64,000 nucleotides of DNA from Clostridiales bacterium (lineage in GTDB: Bacteria > Bacillota > Clostridia > Peptostreptococcales > Anaerovoracaceae), in NCBI GenBank assembly GCA_009776955.1, contig WRMW01000007.1, forward strand, positions 1 through 64,000. The letters are read 5' to 3'. The notes below the pieces were generated by a model that made no database searches, was not told the origin of the DNA, and saw only the letters and a list, made by a program, of their open reading frames with translations. A program made the translations under genes and the position numbers. Numbering within the stretch: the stretch's first letter is position 1; every line of letters begins with the position of its first letter. Below, piece by piece: positions 7,105-51,954 of the stretch.

Positions 7105-7121
7105 GAATACCGTTAGTTAAT

Positions 7122-7243
7122 GTTTCAGGACGGGGTGAGAGTCCCCACCGGCGGTGAGGCGCACATTGTTGCGACAAGTCCGCGAGCCGAAAGGCAGAGC
7201 CGGTCAGAATCCGGCACCGACGGTCATAGTCCGGAAGGGAGGA
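7122..7243 (+). ncRNA. FMN riboswitch (RFN element)
   Basis: Conserved RFN blocks: TTCAGGACGGGGTGAGAGTCCCCACCGGCGGTGA...CAGAGCCGGTCAGAATCCGGCACCGACGGTCATAGTCCGGAAGGGAGG. Confidence 0.95.
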
Positions 7244-7251
7244 ACTATATC

Positions 7252-12598: not shown

Positions 12599-12781
12599 GT
12601 ATGCCCCTTTCAAAAAGACTCTATAGGATTATAACACAACTTCCTGTCGTTTTCTGCCCCGCACGGAAGACCGCCCGCTGACCTGGTCTTTGACCCCACA
12701 CCTGCCCGCAGATCCCGCAAGGGAGCCGTCGGGACTTACTCCTAAACTGCGCCATGCTCGCCGCCGCCATTGGCAGACGGT

Positions 12782-13594
12782 TTACGTGGGTCCTTTTGCC
12801 CGCAGCTGGCTTGGACTTTCAACCACAGCCGGGCGGTCTTCCGCACGGGGCACGTCGGCTCCTGTTGCAAAAACAAAGACGTCCACACTCTCCGCGCCCG
12901 CATCAAGCAAAGCATCAGTGCAGGCGTCTGCCGAGCTGCCTGTCGTATACACGTCGTCTGCCAGCAACAAGCTTTTACCCGCCACAATGTTTATCATATC
13001 ACAGGATACGGCAAACGCGCCTTCAAGGTTTTGCCGCCGCTCATCGCCTGACAGGCTGCTCATAACACTTGTCTCCCGAACACGCATCAGCGCGCCGCCA
13101 AGATATGGGACGCCAATCTTGCGGGACAGCCCCCGGGCAAGCAAGGCCGCCTGATCGTAACCCCGGAAAGACTTCTTCTTTGCGCTCATCGGGACAGGCA
13201 TAACGTAGTCGTAGTACGGCAGTTCGCCGGTCTCGGGGTCGGCAATCGAAAAATACCTCGCTGCCATCAACGCGGCGAGCGTATCAGCATGCCATGACTT
13301 GCTTCGGTACTTCATGTCACGCACCAGCTCTGCGGCGTTGCCTGCATACATTGCGCAGGCGTAGCCTTTTCGGAACACATGTTCTGCATCCGTGTCGCAT
13401 TCCCGACATTTTCTTTTCGGGTTTTCACCTGAAAGGGGCTTTCCGCATTTTTCGCAAGCCCTGCCCGTGACCCAATCTATCTCGCCCGCACACTGCGCGC
13501 AAAGCGCAAGGCTGCCCTTATCCTGTGACGGCAATGGCCTGCTGCAAGCGGCGCAATAAAGGTCCTTGGGGAAAATCAAATCCAAAACGCTCAT
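12782..13594 (-). CDS. comF: ComF family phosphoribosyltransferase-like protein
   Basis: N-terminal Cys zinc-finger pattern; PRTase motif SLLLADDVYTTGSSADAC. Confidence 0.85.
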   Translation of the reverse strand: MSVLDLIFPKDLYCAACSRPLPSQDKGSLALCAQCAGEIDWVTGRACEKCGKPLSGENPKRKCRECDTDAEHVFRKGYACAMYAGNAAELVRDMKYRSKSWHADTLAALMAARYFSIADPETGELPYYDYVMPVPMSAKKKSFRGYDQAALLARGLSRKIGVPYLGGALMRVRETSVMSSLSGDERRQNLEGAFAVSCDMINIVAGKSLLLADDVYTTGSSADACTDALLDAGAESVDVFVFATGADVPRAEDRPAVVESPSQLRAKGPT

Positions 13595-42249: not shown

Positions 42250-43494
42250 TTACCTCACTCCGTATGTAAACACCGTCTCAAACATCGCCTCGATGTTTTC
42301 CGGCTTGGCGTCGTCCACCATCGTAGCGGTGTCCACTATATAGCCGCCGCCGGGCGCACAGGTGTCTATCAGCTTCTTTACGCAATCGGCGGTTTCTTCC
42401 GGGGTCCCGTACGAAAGCGTGAACGACGGCACGTTGCCCATGATGCAGGAATGCCCGCCCAGCACTTTCTTCGCCTTCGCCATGTCTATATACTCGAAGT
42501 TGTAGATGACCTTGCCCTTTGGGACTTCCAGCAGATGCTCGAGCCGCGTATGGTACTTGCCCTCGACATAGACCATCGGGGTCAGCCCCGCCTCGGCCAC
42601 CTCGGTCAGATAGCGTCGCAACGACGGCCAGTAGAACTTGGCAAATTGCTCATCGGACATAAACTCGTCAACGCCCTTATGGAGCCAGAACCATACATAG
42701 GGCGTCGCCTTGCCCGAACAGCCCGCTATGGTGTCCTTTATCGCAAAGTCGGTCACCACGTCGATAAGCGCAAGAAGCTCGTCAGGGCGGTCGTGCATGT
42801 CCATAAGGATGTCGATGGTGCCGCGCATGCTGTCACCGATCATATCGAACGGCGCATACGCAAAGCCCGCATAGAGCGGCGGCATTCCGTACTTCTCTTT
42901 CATATGCGCCTGATACCCGCCGAGATACACAAACCAGTCCATAAGCATCTTGCCCGAGTCCGCAAGGGTCTCAAACGCGCTTATTACCTCTGGATCCGAA
43001 AACGCCGCAAACGCCCCCATATGCCCAAACCACATGGTATTGCGGAAATCGATCTTTGACAGGCCTGAAAGGTTGGAGAAACTACGCGGCAGCCATTTGT
43101 TCATCATAAATTTCGTGATGTCGTGGATGGCCTCGGGATACTCATCCTTTTTCATATACTCCCCCTCCATGTATTGGTACATGATATTGGGGTTGTCGTA
43201 GTGCTTGCCCGGCCAGCGGAACCAGGTCAGCCCGGCACGCTCCATATAGTTCGATGGGAAGAAGAGAATGGGGTCCCAACCCATGTCGGGCTGGTAATGG
43301 TCGTAGAGATGGTCGTAGACCTCCGTGCATTTGGTGTAGTCAGTCATAAGGTCCTGGATGGTCCACTTGTTCATAAAGTATACTGGGAACGCCTGGAACA
43401 CCGGCACTATCGGCACCCTGTCCGGCTCTTTGAGCTGCACGGCGTCCGCAACCCGCTTTATCCTGGCATCATAGATCTCCTGCATATTGGCCAT
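42250..43494 (-). CDS. Uroporphyrinogen decarboxylase (URO-D)-like family protein, possibly a methyltransferase
   Basis: URO-D-like fold; EPDRVPIVPVF N-terminus, GNVPSFTLSYGTPEETADCVKKLIDTCAPGGGYIVDTA; ATG at 43494 after AAAAGGAGG. Confidence 0.75.
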   Translation of the reverse strand: MANMQEIYDARIKRVADAVQLKEPDRVPIVPVFQAFPVYFMNKWTIQDLMTDYTKCTEVYDHLYDHYQPDMGWDPILFFPSNYMERAGLTWFRWPGKHYDNPNIMYQYMEGEYMKKDEYPEAIHDITKFMMNKWLPRSFSNLSGLSKIDFRNTMWFGHMGAFAAFSDPEVISAFETLADSGKMLMDWFVYLGGYQAHMKEKYGMPPLYAGFAYAPFDMIGDSMRGTIDILMDMHDRPDELLALIDVVTDFAIKDTIAGCSGKATPYVWFWLHKGVDEFMSDEQFAKFYWPSLRRYLTEVAEAGLTPMVYVEGKYHTRLEHLLEVPKGKVIYNFEYIDMAKAKKVLGGHSCIMGNVPSFTLSYGTPEETADCVKKLIDTCAPGGGYIVDTATMVDDAKPENIEAMFETVFTYGVR

Positions 43495-43573
43495 AACAAA
43501 CCTCCTTTTAATCAATAATCATTGCTTGCAAACTACATTATATATAACTATATCAAATCGGGGTGTTTTTTCG

Positions 43574-46140: not shown

Positions 46141-47298
46141 TCAATGGCCGCAGGTCTTGCGGTATTCTTTCGGCGTCATGTTTGTGTATTTCTTGAACAG
46201 GACGGAGAAGTATTGGGAGTTCGGGATGCCGACGGCCATCGCCACCTGGGATATTTTCTGACTCGGATCCGCAAGCAGCTCCTTGCTTTTTTCGATTCGC
46301 CGCTTGTATGTGTACTCCATTATGGAAGTGTTCATATGGTTTTTGAACAATAGCATAAGGTAGCCGGAGCTCAGATGTACGGCATCCGCGACCATTTTTG
46401 GGGAGATGGGGTTTTCGAGGTTTTCGTTGATAAAGTCTATGGCGTGCTTCAAGTAGACTGCCAAGTTACCATTGTTCTCGATGGCTTTTGAAAGCTCAAA
46501 ACCCTCACCTTCCTCGCTCTCCCGTTTCAGTAGCTCTAGCCGATCCACGGAAATCTCGTCGTAGCCGACCATGTCACGGACAAGCGCCGTCAAGTCAAAC
46601 GATTTCCGCTGCACCACGCATATGCGACGTCCGTCCCTAAGCACCGTGATACGGTCGGAAATCCTGATGGCATCTTCGACTATATGAGTGAAGTACACGA
46701 CGCCTATCCCGTTTTGCGCCATTTCCCTAAGTATCTCAAGTATCTGCTGCTTCTGCCCGTCGGAGAACAACGACGCTATATTGTCGGCAAGCACGATGCC
46801 GGCCTTGTTGGCGTAGACGCGAGCCATTTGAACGACCTGTTTCTCGAACTCCGTCAGGTTGACCGGAAGCATATCAGAGTTTATGGGGACTTTCAGGCGC
46901 TCAAAGATTTCCTCTGCATGGTATTTTAATTTTTTGTAATTCAATATGCCCGCGCGGTTCGCTATATACTCGCCCATGAAGATATTCTCGGCGACCGTCA
47001 GATCCTGCATAAGGTATTGCTCCTCGTACAGCGACTGCATATTGTTTGAACGGGCAAACGACGGGTTGTGGCTTCGCGGCCTTTTGCCGTAAATCTCAAG
47101 ATATCCAGAGTCGATGGAGATGGCGCCCGAAAACACTTGGTGCATTGCGGTCTTGCCTGCGCCTTTTGTCCCCAAAACGGTATGTATCTCACCTTCGTTC
47201 AGGGAAAAGTCCACCGCGTCCAAAGCCTTGGTGTGCCCGAACTGTTTTGAGATGCCTATTGCTTTCAAACAAACCTGTGAATCCGCCATGGTCATCAC
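46141..47298 (-). CDS. Degenerate ABC-ATPase domain fused to a C-terminal AraC-family helix-turn-helix domain
   Basis: N-half parallels RbsA first ABC domain (GTKGAGKTA; QYLMQDLTVAENIFMGEY; IVLADNIASLF; GVVYFTH); C-half AraC HTH (ENLENPISPKMVADAVHLSSGYLMLLFKNHMNTSIMEYTYKRRIEKSKELLADPSQKISQVAMAVGIPNSQYFSVLFKKYTNMTPKEYRK). Confidence 0.9.
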   Translation of the reverse strand: MMTMADSQVCLKAIGISKQFGHTKALDAVDFSLNEGEIHTVLGTKGAGKTAMHQVFSGAISIDSGYLEIYGKRPRSHNPSFARSNNMQSLYEEQYLMQDLTVAENIFMGEYIANRAGILNYKKLKYHAEEIFERLKVPINSDMLPVNLTEFEKQVVQMARVYANKAGIVLADNIASLFSDGQKQQILEILREMAQNGIGVVYFTHIVEDAIRISDRITVLRDGRRICVVQRKSFDLTALVRDMVGYDEISVDRLELLKRESEEGEGFELSKAIENNGNLAVYLKHAIDFINENLENPISPKMVADAVHLSSGYLMLLFKNHMNTSIMEYTYKRRIEKSKELLADPSQKISQVAMAVGIPNSQYFSVLFKKYTNMTPKEYRKTCGH

Positions 47299-48675: not shown

Positions 48676-49575
48676 TTAGGCGGGTTTTTTCGTTTTCTGG
48701 AGTTGCGACAAGATGATGCCGCAAAATATCAAGGCGCAGCCGAAGTATGCGCGGCCGGTCATGGCCTCGTTTATAAGGATGACGCCGCCCACCACGGAAA
48801 ACACGGATTCTAATGAGAAAATGACCGAGGCCTTGGCGGGGGCGACGTAGCGCTGGCCAACCACCTGGAGCGTGTACGCCACGCCGATGGAACCGATGCC
48901 CCTATAGAGCAGAGGGGCTATGCCCATAAGCATATAGGCTGGCACGACGGGCTCCGTCAGCACGGCAAAGATCATGCAGAGAGCGCCGCAGATGACGAAC
49001 TGGATCATGGAGAGCCTAAGGGCGCTGACCTTTGGCGCAAACCTGTCTATCGCGATGATATGCGCCGCCCAGAAGCAGGCGCCGAGAAGCAACAGGCCAT
49101 CGCCAAGCATAAGGCTGCCCAAGCCGTCCTCCACGCAGAGGAAGTACATGCCGACCACCGCGATGCCCGCGCCCGCCCATATAAGCTTTCCCGCAGGCCT
49201 TTTCATAAAGATTCCGGCTATCGGCACTATTATTATATACAGCCCGGTGATAAACCCGGACTTTCCGGCGGAGCCCGTCAAGTCCACGCCGAATTGCTGA
49301 AGGTTGCCAGCGAAAAAGACGAGCAGGCCGCAGACCGCACCGTACTTCCATAGCGTCCGCCGCATCGCGGCGTCCGGCTTCGCCCTGTCGAAAATCAGAG
49401 TGATAGGCACAAGCGATGCAGCCCCTATAAGGAACGATAGACCGTTGAACAGGAACGGCCGCATATATTCCATGCCGACCACTTGCGCAACAAAAGAAAC
49501 CCCCCAAATGATGGAGGTTAGAAAGAGCAGAATTGTAGCTTTTAATTCTTTTGATGCCATTGCTTTTGCCGTCAC
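48676..49575 (-). CDS. EamA/DMT-family transporter
   Basis: Ten-TM-like protein; [60 protein letters not shown]. Confidence 0.88.
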
Positions 49576-50360
49576 AGAATGCTTTTCAGGAATTGGCGGG
49601 CACGCGGGTTCTGCGGGTTGGTGAAAAATTCGTCCGGCGTGCCAGTTTCGCCTATCTCGCCCTCTACCATAAAGATGACGCGGTCTGCCGCCTCACGCGC
49701 AAAGCCCATCTCGTGCGTGACGACAAGCATGGTCATGCCGCTTTTCGCGAGGTCTACCATCACCTCCAATACGTCCCCGACCAGTTCAGGGTCGAGGGAA
49801 CTGGTCGGCTCGTCAAAGAGCATTATCTCCGGCTCCATCGCAAGCGCCCGCGCTATGGCGACACGCTGCTGCTGTCCGCCGGAAAGCTTGGATGGGAACT
49901 CGTCGAACTTGTCTGCGAGCCCGACCTTGGCAAGTATCTCTTCGGCTATTTTCGAGGCTTGCTGCTCGGGCATTTTCTTTACGTGGATGGGGGCGAGCAT
50001 AACGTTTTCCTTGGCGGTCTTGTGCGGAAATAGGTTGAAGCGCTGAAAGACCATGCCCGTTCTGAGCAATATCTGTGCGCGACGCTCCCTTGACATATGT
50101 ACGTGCTGATGGCCGTTCACCCGTTTTTCAATAAGTTCGTCGTCAATATAAATCTCGCCATCCGAGATGGTTTCGAGGCCGTTAATGCAACGCAAAAAAG
50201 TGGACTTGCCCGAACCCGACGGCCCGATGATAGCGACAACCTCGCCCAAGTCAACGGTCAAACTGACGTTCTTGACTGCCTCGACTATCGCGAAGGTCTT
50301 GCATATATCAACGGTTTTTATTACCGACATTATATCCTGCCCCTCTTCTTCATCATTCAT
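49572..50360 (-). CDS. Polar amino-acid ABC transporter ATP-binding protein
   Basis: [55 protein letters not shown]. Confidence 0.94.
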
Positions 50361-51012
50361 ACAACGAATATTTCTTTTCGAGCCTGTTGAATACGTACGT
50401 GAATACTCCGGTCAAAACCAAATATATCGCCAGCGTCGGGATAAAAACAAGCGCGCTTGCCCTGTTTGATGATATCATCCTGGCCTGGAACGTGAGGTCG
50501 TTTAGCGCGATGATGGACACGAGCGCCGTGTCTTTCAGCACCATAATAAACTCGTTGCAAACCGGCGGTATCATGCGCCTGTACGACTGCGGTATAATGA
50601 CAAGCCTCATCGCCTGCCCGTAAGAAAGGCCAAGCGAGCGCGCCGCTTCTAGCTGTCCTTTGTCTATCGACTGTATCGCCGCCCTTATTATTTCTGCAAG
50701 ATAAGCCGCGATATTGAGGGAAAAGGTGACATACGCTGCCGTAAAACGACCCATTGTAAAGCTGTCATCGATAAGAGGCAGACCAAAATAAACGATGAAC
50801 AATTGCAACAAAAGCGGCGTACCGCGAAAGAAGAACACGTAGGCGGTCGCCGGTTTGCTGATAAGCGGGTTCTTGGATATTTTCCCTAGAGCCAGAAAGA
50901 CGCCGAGCACAAGCGCCGTACACACCGACGTAATCGTCAGTGTCAGCGTCGTGCCCGTCGCCTCAATGAGTACGGGCATCCATAGGAATATTTGGTCGAG
51001 CGATTCTTTCAT
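50353..51012 (-). CDS. Amino-acid ABC transporter permease
   Basis: [55 protein letters not shown]. Confidence 0.94.
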
Positions 51013-51861
51013 CTATTCGTTTCGTACTACGATGGACAAAGCATTTGACACATAGGGCTCAGTCAGAAGATACCTTTCCTTGCGCGGCTCCGTGATGGAC
51101 ACGGACGAAATGATGATGTCGTACTCTCCTCTTTCGAGCGCGAAGAAGATGCCGTCCCATGCGGTGTTGACAAATTCGACTTCTAGGCCAAGGAGCTCGC
51201 CGAGGCGATATGACACGTCGATATCAAAGCCTATGGGCGTACGCCCGTCTTCCGCAAGGTATTCCATTGGCGGGTAGCCCACTTCCACACCAACCAAAAG
51301 CTTGCCTTCGGCTATCGTGGTGAAGTCCATCGGGATGGTGGGCGCTGACGAAGGGTTGCGAAGCCCTGCCGTGAAATCCTCGCCGAAATGCTCCACCGCG
51401 ATCCTGGACATGGAACCGTCAAAGAACATGGTATCAAGAGCCGCCTCGACAGCCGCAAGAAGAGCGGTTGACTCTTTTGCGAGGCAAAGCCCCAGAGGCT
51501 CGCCTTCATCGTTGACCCAAGCAAGCCTGTACTTGTCGCCGCCCGACAAGTAGTACCCAGCCACGACGCTGTCCACATAGACCGCATCAACGCGTTCAAG
51601 CGCAAGATCGTCAAAGCATTGCGTGACTTTCTCGTAGCGATGGACGGTAACGCCCGTCATGCCATCTTCGATCATCTCGTCGATACTGATGGCCGCCGTC
51701 GTATCGACCTGCACCGCAATCTCGTGACCCGGGAAGTCTGCCGGCGAATTGATAGCGCCTCCGCCTCCGCTTGAAGTCCCGCCGCCGCAGGCCGCCAGAA
51801 TGAGCGCCAGACATACAGCCAGTGAGATTGCAATAGTTTTCTTCATATTCATGATTCGCAT
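51013..51861 (-). CDS. Amino-acid ABC transporter substrate-binding lipoprotein with apparently circularly permuted SBP_bac_3 halves
   Basis: Lipobox LILAAC; C-half-like segment (INSPADFPGHEIAVQVDTTAA...VDAVYVDSVVAGYYL...) precedes N-half-like segment (EGKLLVGVEVGYPPMEYLAEDGRTPIGFDIDVSYRLGELLGLEVEFVNTAWDGIFFALERGEYDIIISSVSITEPRKERYLLTEPYVSNALSIVVRNE). Confidence 0.88.
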   Translation of the reverse strand: MRIMNMKKTIAISLAVCLALILAACGGGTSSGGGGAINSPADFPGHEIAVQVDTTAAISIDEMIEDGMTGVTVHRYEKVTQCFDDLALERVDAVYVDSVVAGYYLSGGDKYRLAWVNDEGEPLGLCLAKESTALLAAVEAALDTMFFDGSMSRIAVEHFGEDFTAGLRNPSSAPTIPMDFTTIAEGKLLVGVEVGYPPMEYLAEDGRTPIGFDIDVSYRLGELLGLEVEFVNTAWDGIFFALERGEYDIIISSVSITEPRKERYLLTEPYVSNALSIVVRNE

Positions 51862-51954
51862 AACCTCCTATTCAAAATTGAATTTTCATTATACCATTTA
51901 TTTAACTTTGTCCAACTTTTTTTGTAGATTAGGTTTTTGGGGATTTTCGCGTGC

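Follow-up and report, generated by a model that had tools for sequence, protein, structure and literature searches.

Natural circular permutation of an SBP_bac_3 lipoprotein in a Clostridiales bacterium

Natural circular permutation of proteins is usually treated as rare. Among the solute-binding lipoproteins of ABC transporters, TpMglB-2 (Tp0684) of Treponema pallidum was described as a natural circular permutant of the type I sugar-binding kind, for which the name 'Type Ic / Cluster Bc' was proposed; this type occurs in treponemes and in Gram-positive gut bacteria, and the authors suggested membrane tethering as a cause of the permutation (PMC4990184). Permutation of binding proteins by engineering, for use as biosensors, is also known, as indicated by a reference cited in PMC7683729. 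In GlnBP, the large domain consists of residues 5-84 and 186-224, the small domain of residues 90-180 and the hinge of residues 85-89 and 181-185, and Thr70 and Arg75 contact the backbone of the amino-acid ligand (PMC7400645); the domain limits of GlnBP are also given in PMC13229503. Our search of open-access journal papers found no report of a natural permutation in the family-3 (type II) solute-binding proteins (SBPs). Natural permutation of this very common family seems not to have been reported before, and its recurrence, described below, seems to be the most surprising part.

Half-domain order of the window protein

The window, a stretch of 64,000 nucleotides from a Clostridiales bacterium (contig WRMW01000007.1, positions 1 to 64,000), contains a gene for a circularly permuted SBP_bac_3 lipoprotein, in which the C-half of the domain is followed by the N-half, at 51013..51861 on the minus strand. 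The initial annotation had placed the gene at these positions, which were correct; the strand is minus, and the gene is read as a single unbroken ORF from 51861 to 51013, with a product of 282 amino acids. The start is the ATG at 51861 or the ATG at 51852, the latter being better spaced from AGGAGG (complement of 51864-51869). The lipoprotein signal peptide and lipobox LAAC (residues 22-25, with Cys25; 51787..51861, minus strand) are followed by a Gly/Ser linker, the C-half (residues 36-163; 51373..51756, minus strand), a seam (residues 164-184; 51310..51372, minus strand) and the N-half (residues 185-282; 51016..51309, minus strand).

The results of our Pfam search showed a match to SBP_bac_3 (PF00497) of 101.8 bits, above the curated cut-off of 26.4, in two stretches, positions 1-92 of the profile (the N-half) mapping to residues 188-281 at the C-terminus of the protein. 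A match to Peripla_BP (type I fold) was absent from this search. Comparison with AncQR (4zv1) by phmmer showed that residues 185-280 correspond to residues 9-103 of the chain (i-E 4.5e-15) and residues 33-161 to residues 105-233 (i-E 5.1e-11); both halves are complete, in reverse order, and each match is significant alone. The half-domain HMMs identified the same C-half and N-half, and the canonical order, N-half then C-half, was not found in the window protein by Pfam, phmmer or these HMMs. Since homology to PF00497 is certain and the order is reversed, we filed the protein as a topological variant and not as a canonical member. These alignments upheld the earlier proposal of a true permutation, with a complete C-half ahead of a complete N-half in one continuous ORF. 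Among solved chains, neither the sequence profile (for the chains listed) nor the fold search with Foldseek revealed a permuted SBP_bac_3.

Alignment to GlnBP identified PYVSNA as hinge 1 and LSIVVRNE as the strand with which lobe 2 begins. The protein had initially been said to end at the usual hinge; by the GlnBP limits the hinge is PYVSNA itself, and LSIVVRNE lies past it, so that the cut is in lobe 2, just past the hinge. The C-half contains most of lobe 2 (residue 36 to about 118), hinge 2, the return helices of lobe 1 and Asp97 of the amino-acid pocket, and the N-half holds the beginning of lobe 1 together with hinge 1, the C-terminal LSIVVRNE and the pocket residues Ser255 and Arg260. 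As read from the sequence, the mature N-terminus would enter lobe 2 at the element after the LSIVVRNE strand, and both hinge crossings would be kept. The idea that the cut removes one hinge crossing and makes each lobe contiguous was dropped, because the GlnBP limits show that both crossings remain.

The pocket residues were assigned by alignment only, Ser255 corresponding to Thr70 of GlnBP, Arg260 to Arg75 and Asp97 to Asp157, which we take to be a contact of the amino-acid backbone as well. Cys25 and Asp97 were invariant and Arg260 nearly so in the alignment of 14 permuted orthologues, and the pocket Arg and Asp were invariant in an alignment of 20 diverse permutants.

At the seam, the former C-terminus TAGLR is followed by NPSSAPTIPM and by the former mature N-terminus DFTTIAEG, the protein reading ..DFTAGLR-NPSSAPTIPM-DFTTIAEGKLLVG.. 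across it. Comparison with normal-order sisters, which end in ..DITAGVRK (or similar, in several) and start with ..LTTVTPGVLKVG, showed that about 10 residues connect what used to be the C-terminus with the former N-terminus of the mature protein.

Orthologues, predicted structure and gene neighbourhood

Permuted orthologues were found in three MAGs (L003-L005) and in 10 of the 199 genomes from the same family as the window, a count that includes the genome of the window itself. Two copies were present in G133, which is apparently the same record as L003, and two tandem copies in G145. The 14 permuted proteins that we aligned, drawn from about a dozen separate assemblies, showed 49-67% identity to the window protein over the full length. 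The window genome (2.03 Mb) has one other SBP_3 above the Pfam cut-off, in normal order. The nearest normal-order relatives (L006-L009, L049, L062 and others) carry the signatures GYPPMEYLAEDG, TAWDGIF and DKVMNCFDELKL, or near variants of them, and the normal-order sisters keep the same SBP-permease-ATPase order.

Sequences were restored to canonical order before tree building, and the long-branch C-N rows L056 and L058_3886 were excluded from the careful tree. The window clade was supported at 100/98, its grouping with the normal-order sisters at 99/80 and the whole subfamily at 100/100. Trees of each half alone also placed the window clade and nine normal-order sisters in one group, with a support of 88 for the N-half and 99 for the C-half; their agreement indicates a true permutation, since unrelated halves brought together in a chimera would be expected to fall in different groups. 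In two close pairs of the window clade (L042/L043 and L041/L042), dN was about 0.05-0.17 and dS 0.65-2.0 in both halves, which shows that both are under constraint.

The AlphaFold model of the window protein, built with the 14 orthologues, was confident (pLDDT 89.4, pTM 0.79; 93-97 at the seam), and its element order was that of the normal-order sister L008 with the C-half block shifted to the front. Together with homology, this model suggests that the two halves pair natively within one chain. As Foldseek aligns in sequence order and is blind to permutation, a normal-order sister was run as a control; it matched TTC0807, ArgBP and AncQR at E of about 1e-24 with TM of 0.87-0.91, whereas the best E of the permutant was 2e-7 with TM of at most about 0.5 over the full length. 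The N-half of the permutant matched the isolated domain 1 of TmArgBP. The initial annotation had put the lipid anchor on the opposite lobe, and mapping onto the GlnBP domain boundaries and the predicted order of secondary-structure elements support this; the lipidated N-terminus would be shifted from lobe 1 to lobe 2, with a probable change of anchor geometry.

The SBP gene is directly adjoined by the cognate permease gene (PF00528, HEQRo_perm_3TM; 50353..51012, minus strand), which is overlapped by the gene of the cognate GlnQ/TcyN-like ATPase (49572..50360, minus strand). The fourth gene of the conserved cluster encodes an EamA/DMT-family transporter (PF00892; 48676..49575, minus strand). 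The SBP gene of the window is thus linked to a HAAT-type permease and ATPase, and the same order was found behind the permuted orthologues examined, the second copy of G133 not being clearly so placed. The EamA gene came next in most permuted loci, and some normal-order relatives also have it behind SBP-permease-ATPase. The window protein most likely has the ordinary task of capturing amino acids for an ABC importer. The best curated ligand models (cystine and Lys/Arg/Orn) scored far below their cut-offs for this protein, and the Rfam search of the operon found no riboswitch hinting at the ligand. Glutamine, considered because of a GlnRS gene just upstream, was dropped as a ligand since GlnRS is not a conserved neighbour.

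Elsewhere in the window, Rfam identified an FMN riboswitch (7117-7250, plus strand) and a raiA RNA (12669-12838, minus strand). A gene at 46141-47298 (minus strand), adjoining a normal sugar ABC transporter set, encodes a fusion protein, possibly a transporter-derived regulator, in which a sugar-type ABC ATPase domain (PF00005) is followed at the C-terminus by an AraC-type DNA-binding domain (PF12833/PF00165). The signature region of the ATPase domain, LTEFEKQVVQMARV, is unusual. A URO-D family protein (42250-43515, minus strand), possibly a methyltransferase-like member, also adjoins a sugar ABC transporter.

Other permutants and number of origins

Permutants were sought with permuted profiles. 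Raw single-stretch C-N matches were rejected as a sign of permutation, since they can be false in normal N-C-N-C tandem fusions (e.g. L146) or in-frame tandem genes (L176, L177), and because of these false positives the order was classed on whole ORFs with half-domain profiles. The NCBIfam StpK7 match in one stretch may be such a tandem.

Three natural cut sites were found in the family. Each lies in lobe 2 and would thereby take the lipidated N-terminus away from lobe 1 and place it on lobe 2. A total of 49 ORFs, some of them orthologous, scored as plain C-N and belong to type A (C-half then N-half, as in the window), and about 9 ORFs (e.g. L122-L128) belong to type B, cut in the lobe-2 loop ahead of the last lobe-2 strand. 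The type B order is lobe-1 return segment, N-half and most of lobe 2 (L122-L128, L130, L147). Type C, in which the cut follows the first beta-alpha unit in lobe 2, was represented by one clade (L069, at 1396-2271 on the minus strand, L142, L143 and L149). No lobe-1 cut, which is expected to appear as a C-half with a partial N-half match, was seen among the permutants found. A full-span type-A match was present in at least 26 of the 391 genomes of the class (checked at the ORF level for part of the 26). In the phylum to which the Treponema MAG L006 belongs, 9 of 149 genomes had a type-A ORF. Both genome counts were obtained with profile-biased searches, and some permease fusions are among them.

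Some permuted SBPs were fused to a permease, in frames of 501-779 amino acids. Alternating C-N-C-N fusions were observed at L141:571-2907 (plus strand), L058:1513-3831 (minus strand) and L057:1304-3553 (plus strand). All three have a permease domain at the end, and C-(N-C)-N is another possible reading of such chains. The ORF at L179:721-3681 (minus strand) has three C/N pairs and also matches the permease.

The results of our AU tests, in which the sub-groups were mostly chosen once a first tree had been seen, rejected a single clade for all type A (p=4.8e-5) and for all type B (p=1.7e-5), as well as the grouping of the window clade with L089 (p=7.6e-6), with the large type-A clade (p=6.2e-5), with L092 (p=2.3e-6) and with the L111 group (p=9.2e-10). 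Normal order, being general in the family, was assumed to be the ancestral state. The careful tree gave 11 changes for type A, at least 7 of them forced by well-supported branches, and 6 for type B, at least 5 of them so forced. Some of the changes of either type could be reversals. The permutation arose separately several times in gut-type bacteria of the Bacillota and Spirochaetota, and the survey of its spread revealed further cut sites and the survival of close normal-order relatives.

Interpretation and comparison with known systems

We estimate at roughly 0.87 the probability that the window protein is a genuine circular permutant of an amino-acid-binding lipoprotein of family 3 (type II, GlnH/HisJ/ArgBP-like), anchored through lobe 2, capturing for the adjacent permease and ATPase and derived from a single ancestral event. 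A short linker would now connect the original N- and C-termini, the two of which lay in lobe 1, and new termini would have been opened in lobe 2 after the post-hinge-1 strand. In solution, the two lobes and both hinge crossings would still form and the backbone grip of Arg, Ser/Thr and Asp would be retained, so that amino acids would be captured by Venus-flytrap closure and handed over to the permease and ATPase. The permutation of the window clade would be a single event in the ancestor of the clade, and by the simplest route the gene would have been duplicated in tandem, the copies fused in frame and the outer halves lost, leaving C-N. Two normal SBPs stand in tandem, in frame and 18 nt apart, in G1162 and G1210, and such pairs would be the kind of precursor for this route.

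A domain-swapped dimer, in which each C-half would pair with the N-half of the partner chain and for which the permutation was tolerated or selected, is unlikely: such a dimer is described for the normal-order relative TmArgBP (PMC4022495), but the seam of about 20 residues, predicted at a pLDDT of 93-97 in the single-chain model, is long enough for the termini to be connected inside a single chain, and there was no positive sign of a dimer. Slightly less probable still is a role as receptor or sensor, or in feeding the EamA exporter, instead of in uptake; the conserved fourth place of the EamA gene speaks for it, whereas the permease and ATPase trail the SBP gene in the permuted orthologues examined as they do in ordinary importers.

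SBP_3 genes are abundant and often in tandem, and the C-half of one could have met the N-half of an unrelated one and thereby mimic a permutation. We consider this chimera very improbable, as the N-half-only and C-half-only trees both place the clade in the same normal-order subfamily. A misassembly or a decayed, non-functional gene is hardly credible. The window genome is a draft of 22 contigs, but the 14 proteins, most of them from independent genomes, share the permuted order and their genes have the same downstream neighbours in an intact operon, and dN was far below dS in both halves.

With a true permutation as the preferred reading, one of the commonest bacterial protein families has been permuted repeatedly. 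It is possible, though we hold it doubtful, that lobe-2 anchoring is advantageous in some Bacillota and Spirochaetota and that selection repeatedly made lobe-2 permutations at the three sites; such tethering-driven convergence might then have a parallel, equally tentative, in the permuted sugar-binding proteins that these groups of bacteria also have. The tethering idea of the TpMglB-2 authors becomes testable in an independent fold, and the presence of close normal-order relatives makes before-and-after pairs comparable for folding, hinge motion, anchoring and transport. For annotation, permuted members give only partial Pfam matches and escape a sequential fold search.

The window protein shares with SBP_bac_3 proteins (GlnH, HisJ, ArgT, TmArgBP and AncQR) the half-domains, the pocket residues, lipoprotein export and an adjoining HAAT-type permease and ATPase. 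However, the canonical members have their termini in lobe 1, whereas its halves are circularly shifted and its termini are in lobe 2. The known GlnPQ is a normal-order SBP-permease fusion, N-C-N-C-TMD (as L146), whereas L057, L058 and L141 are C-N-C-N-TMD. TpMglB-2, the nearest precedent, is, like the window protein, a naturally permuted ABC solute-binding lipoprotein. In TpMglB-2, the permutation adds a fourth hinge crossing and the moved part is 13% similar to the original (PMC4990184), whereas in the window protein both crossings are kept and both halves are clearly homologous.
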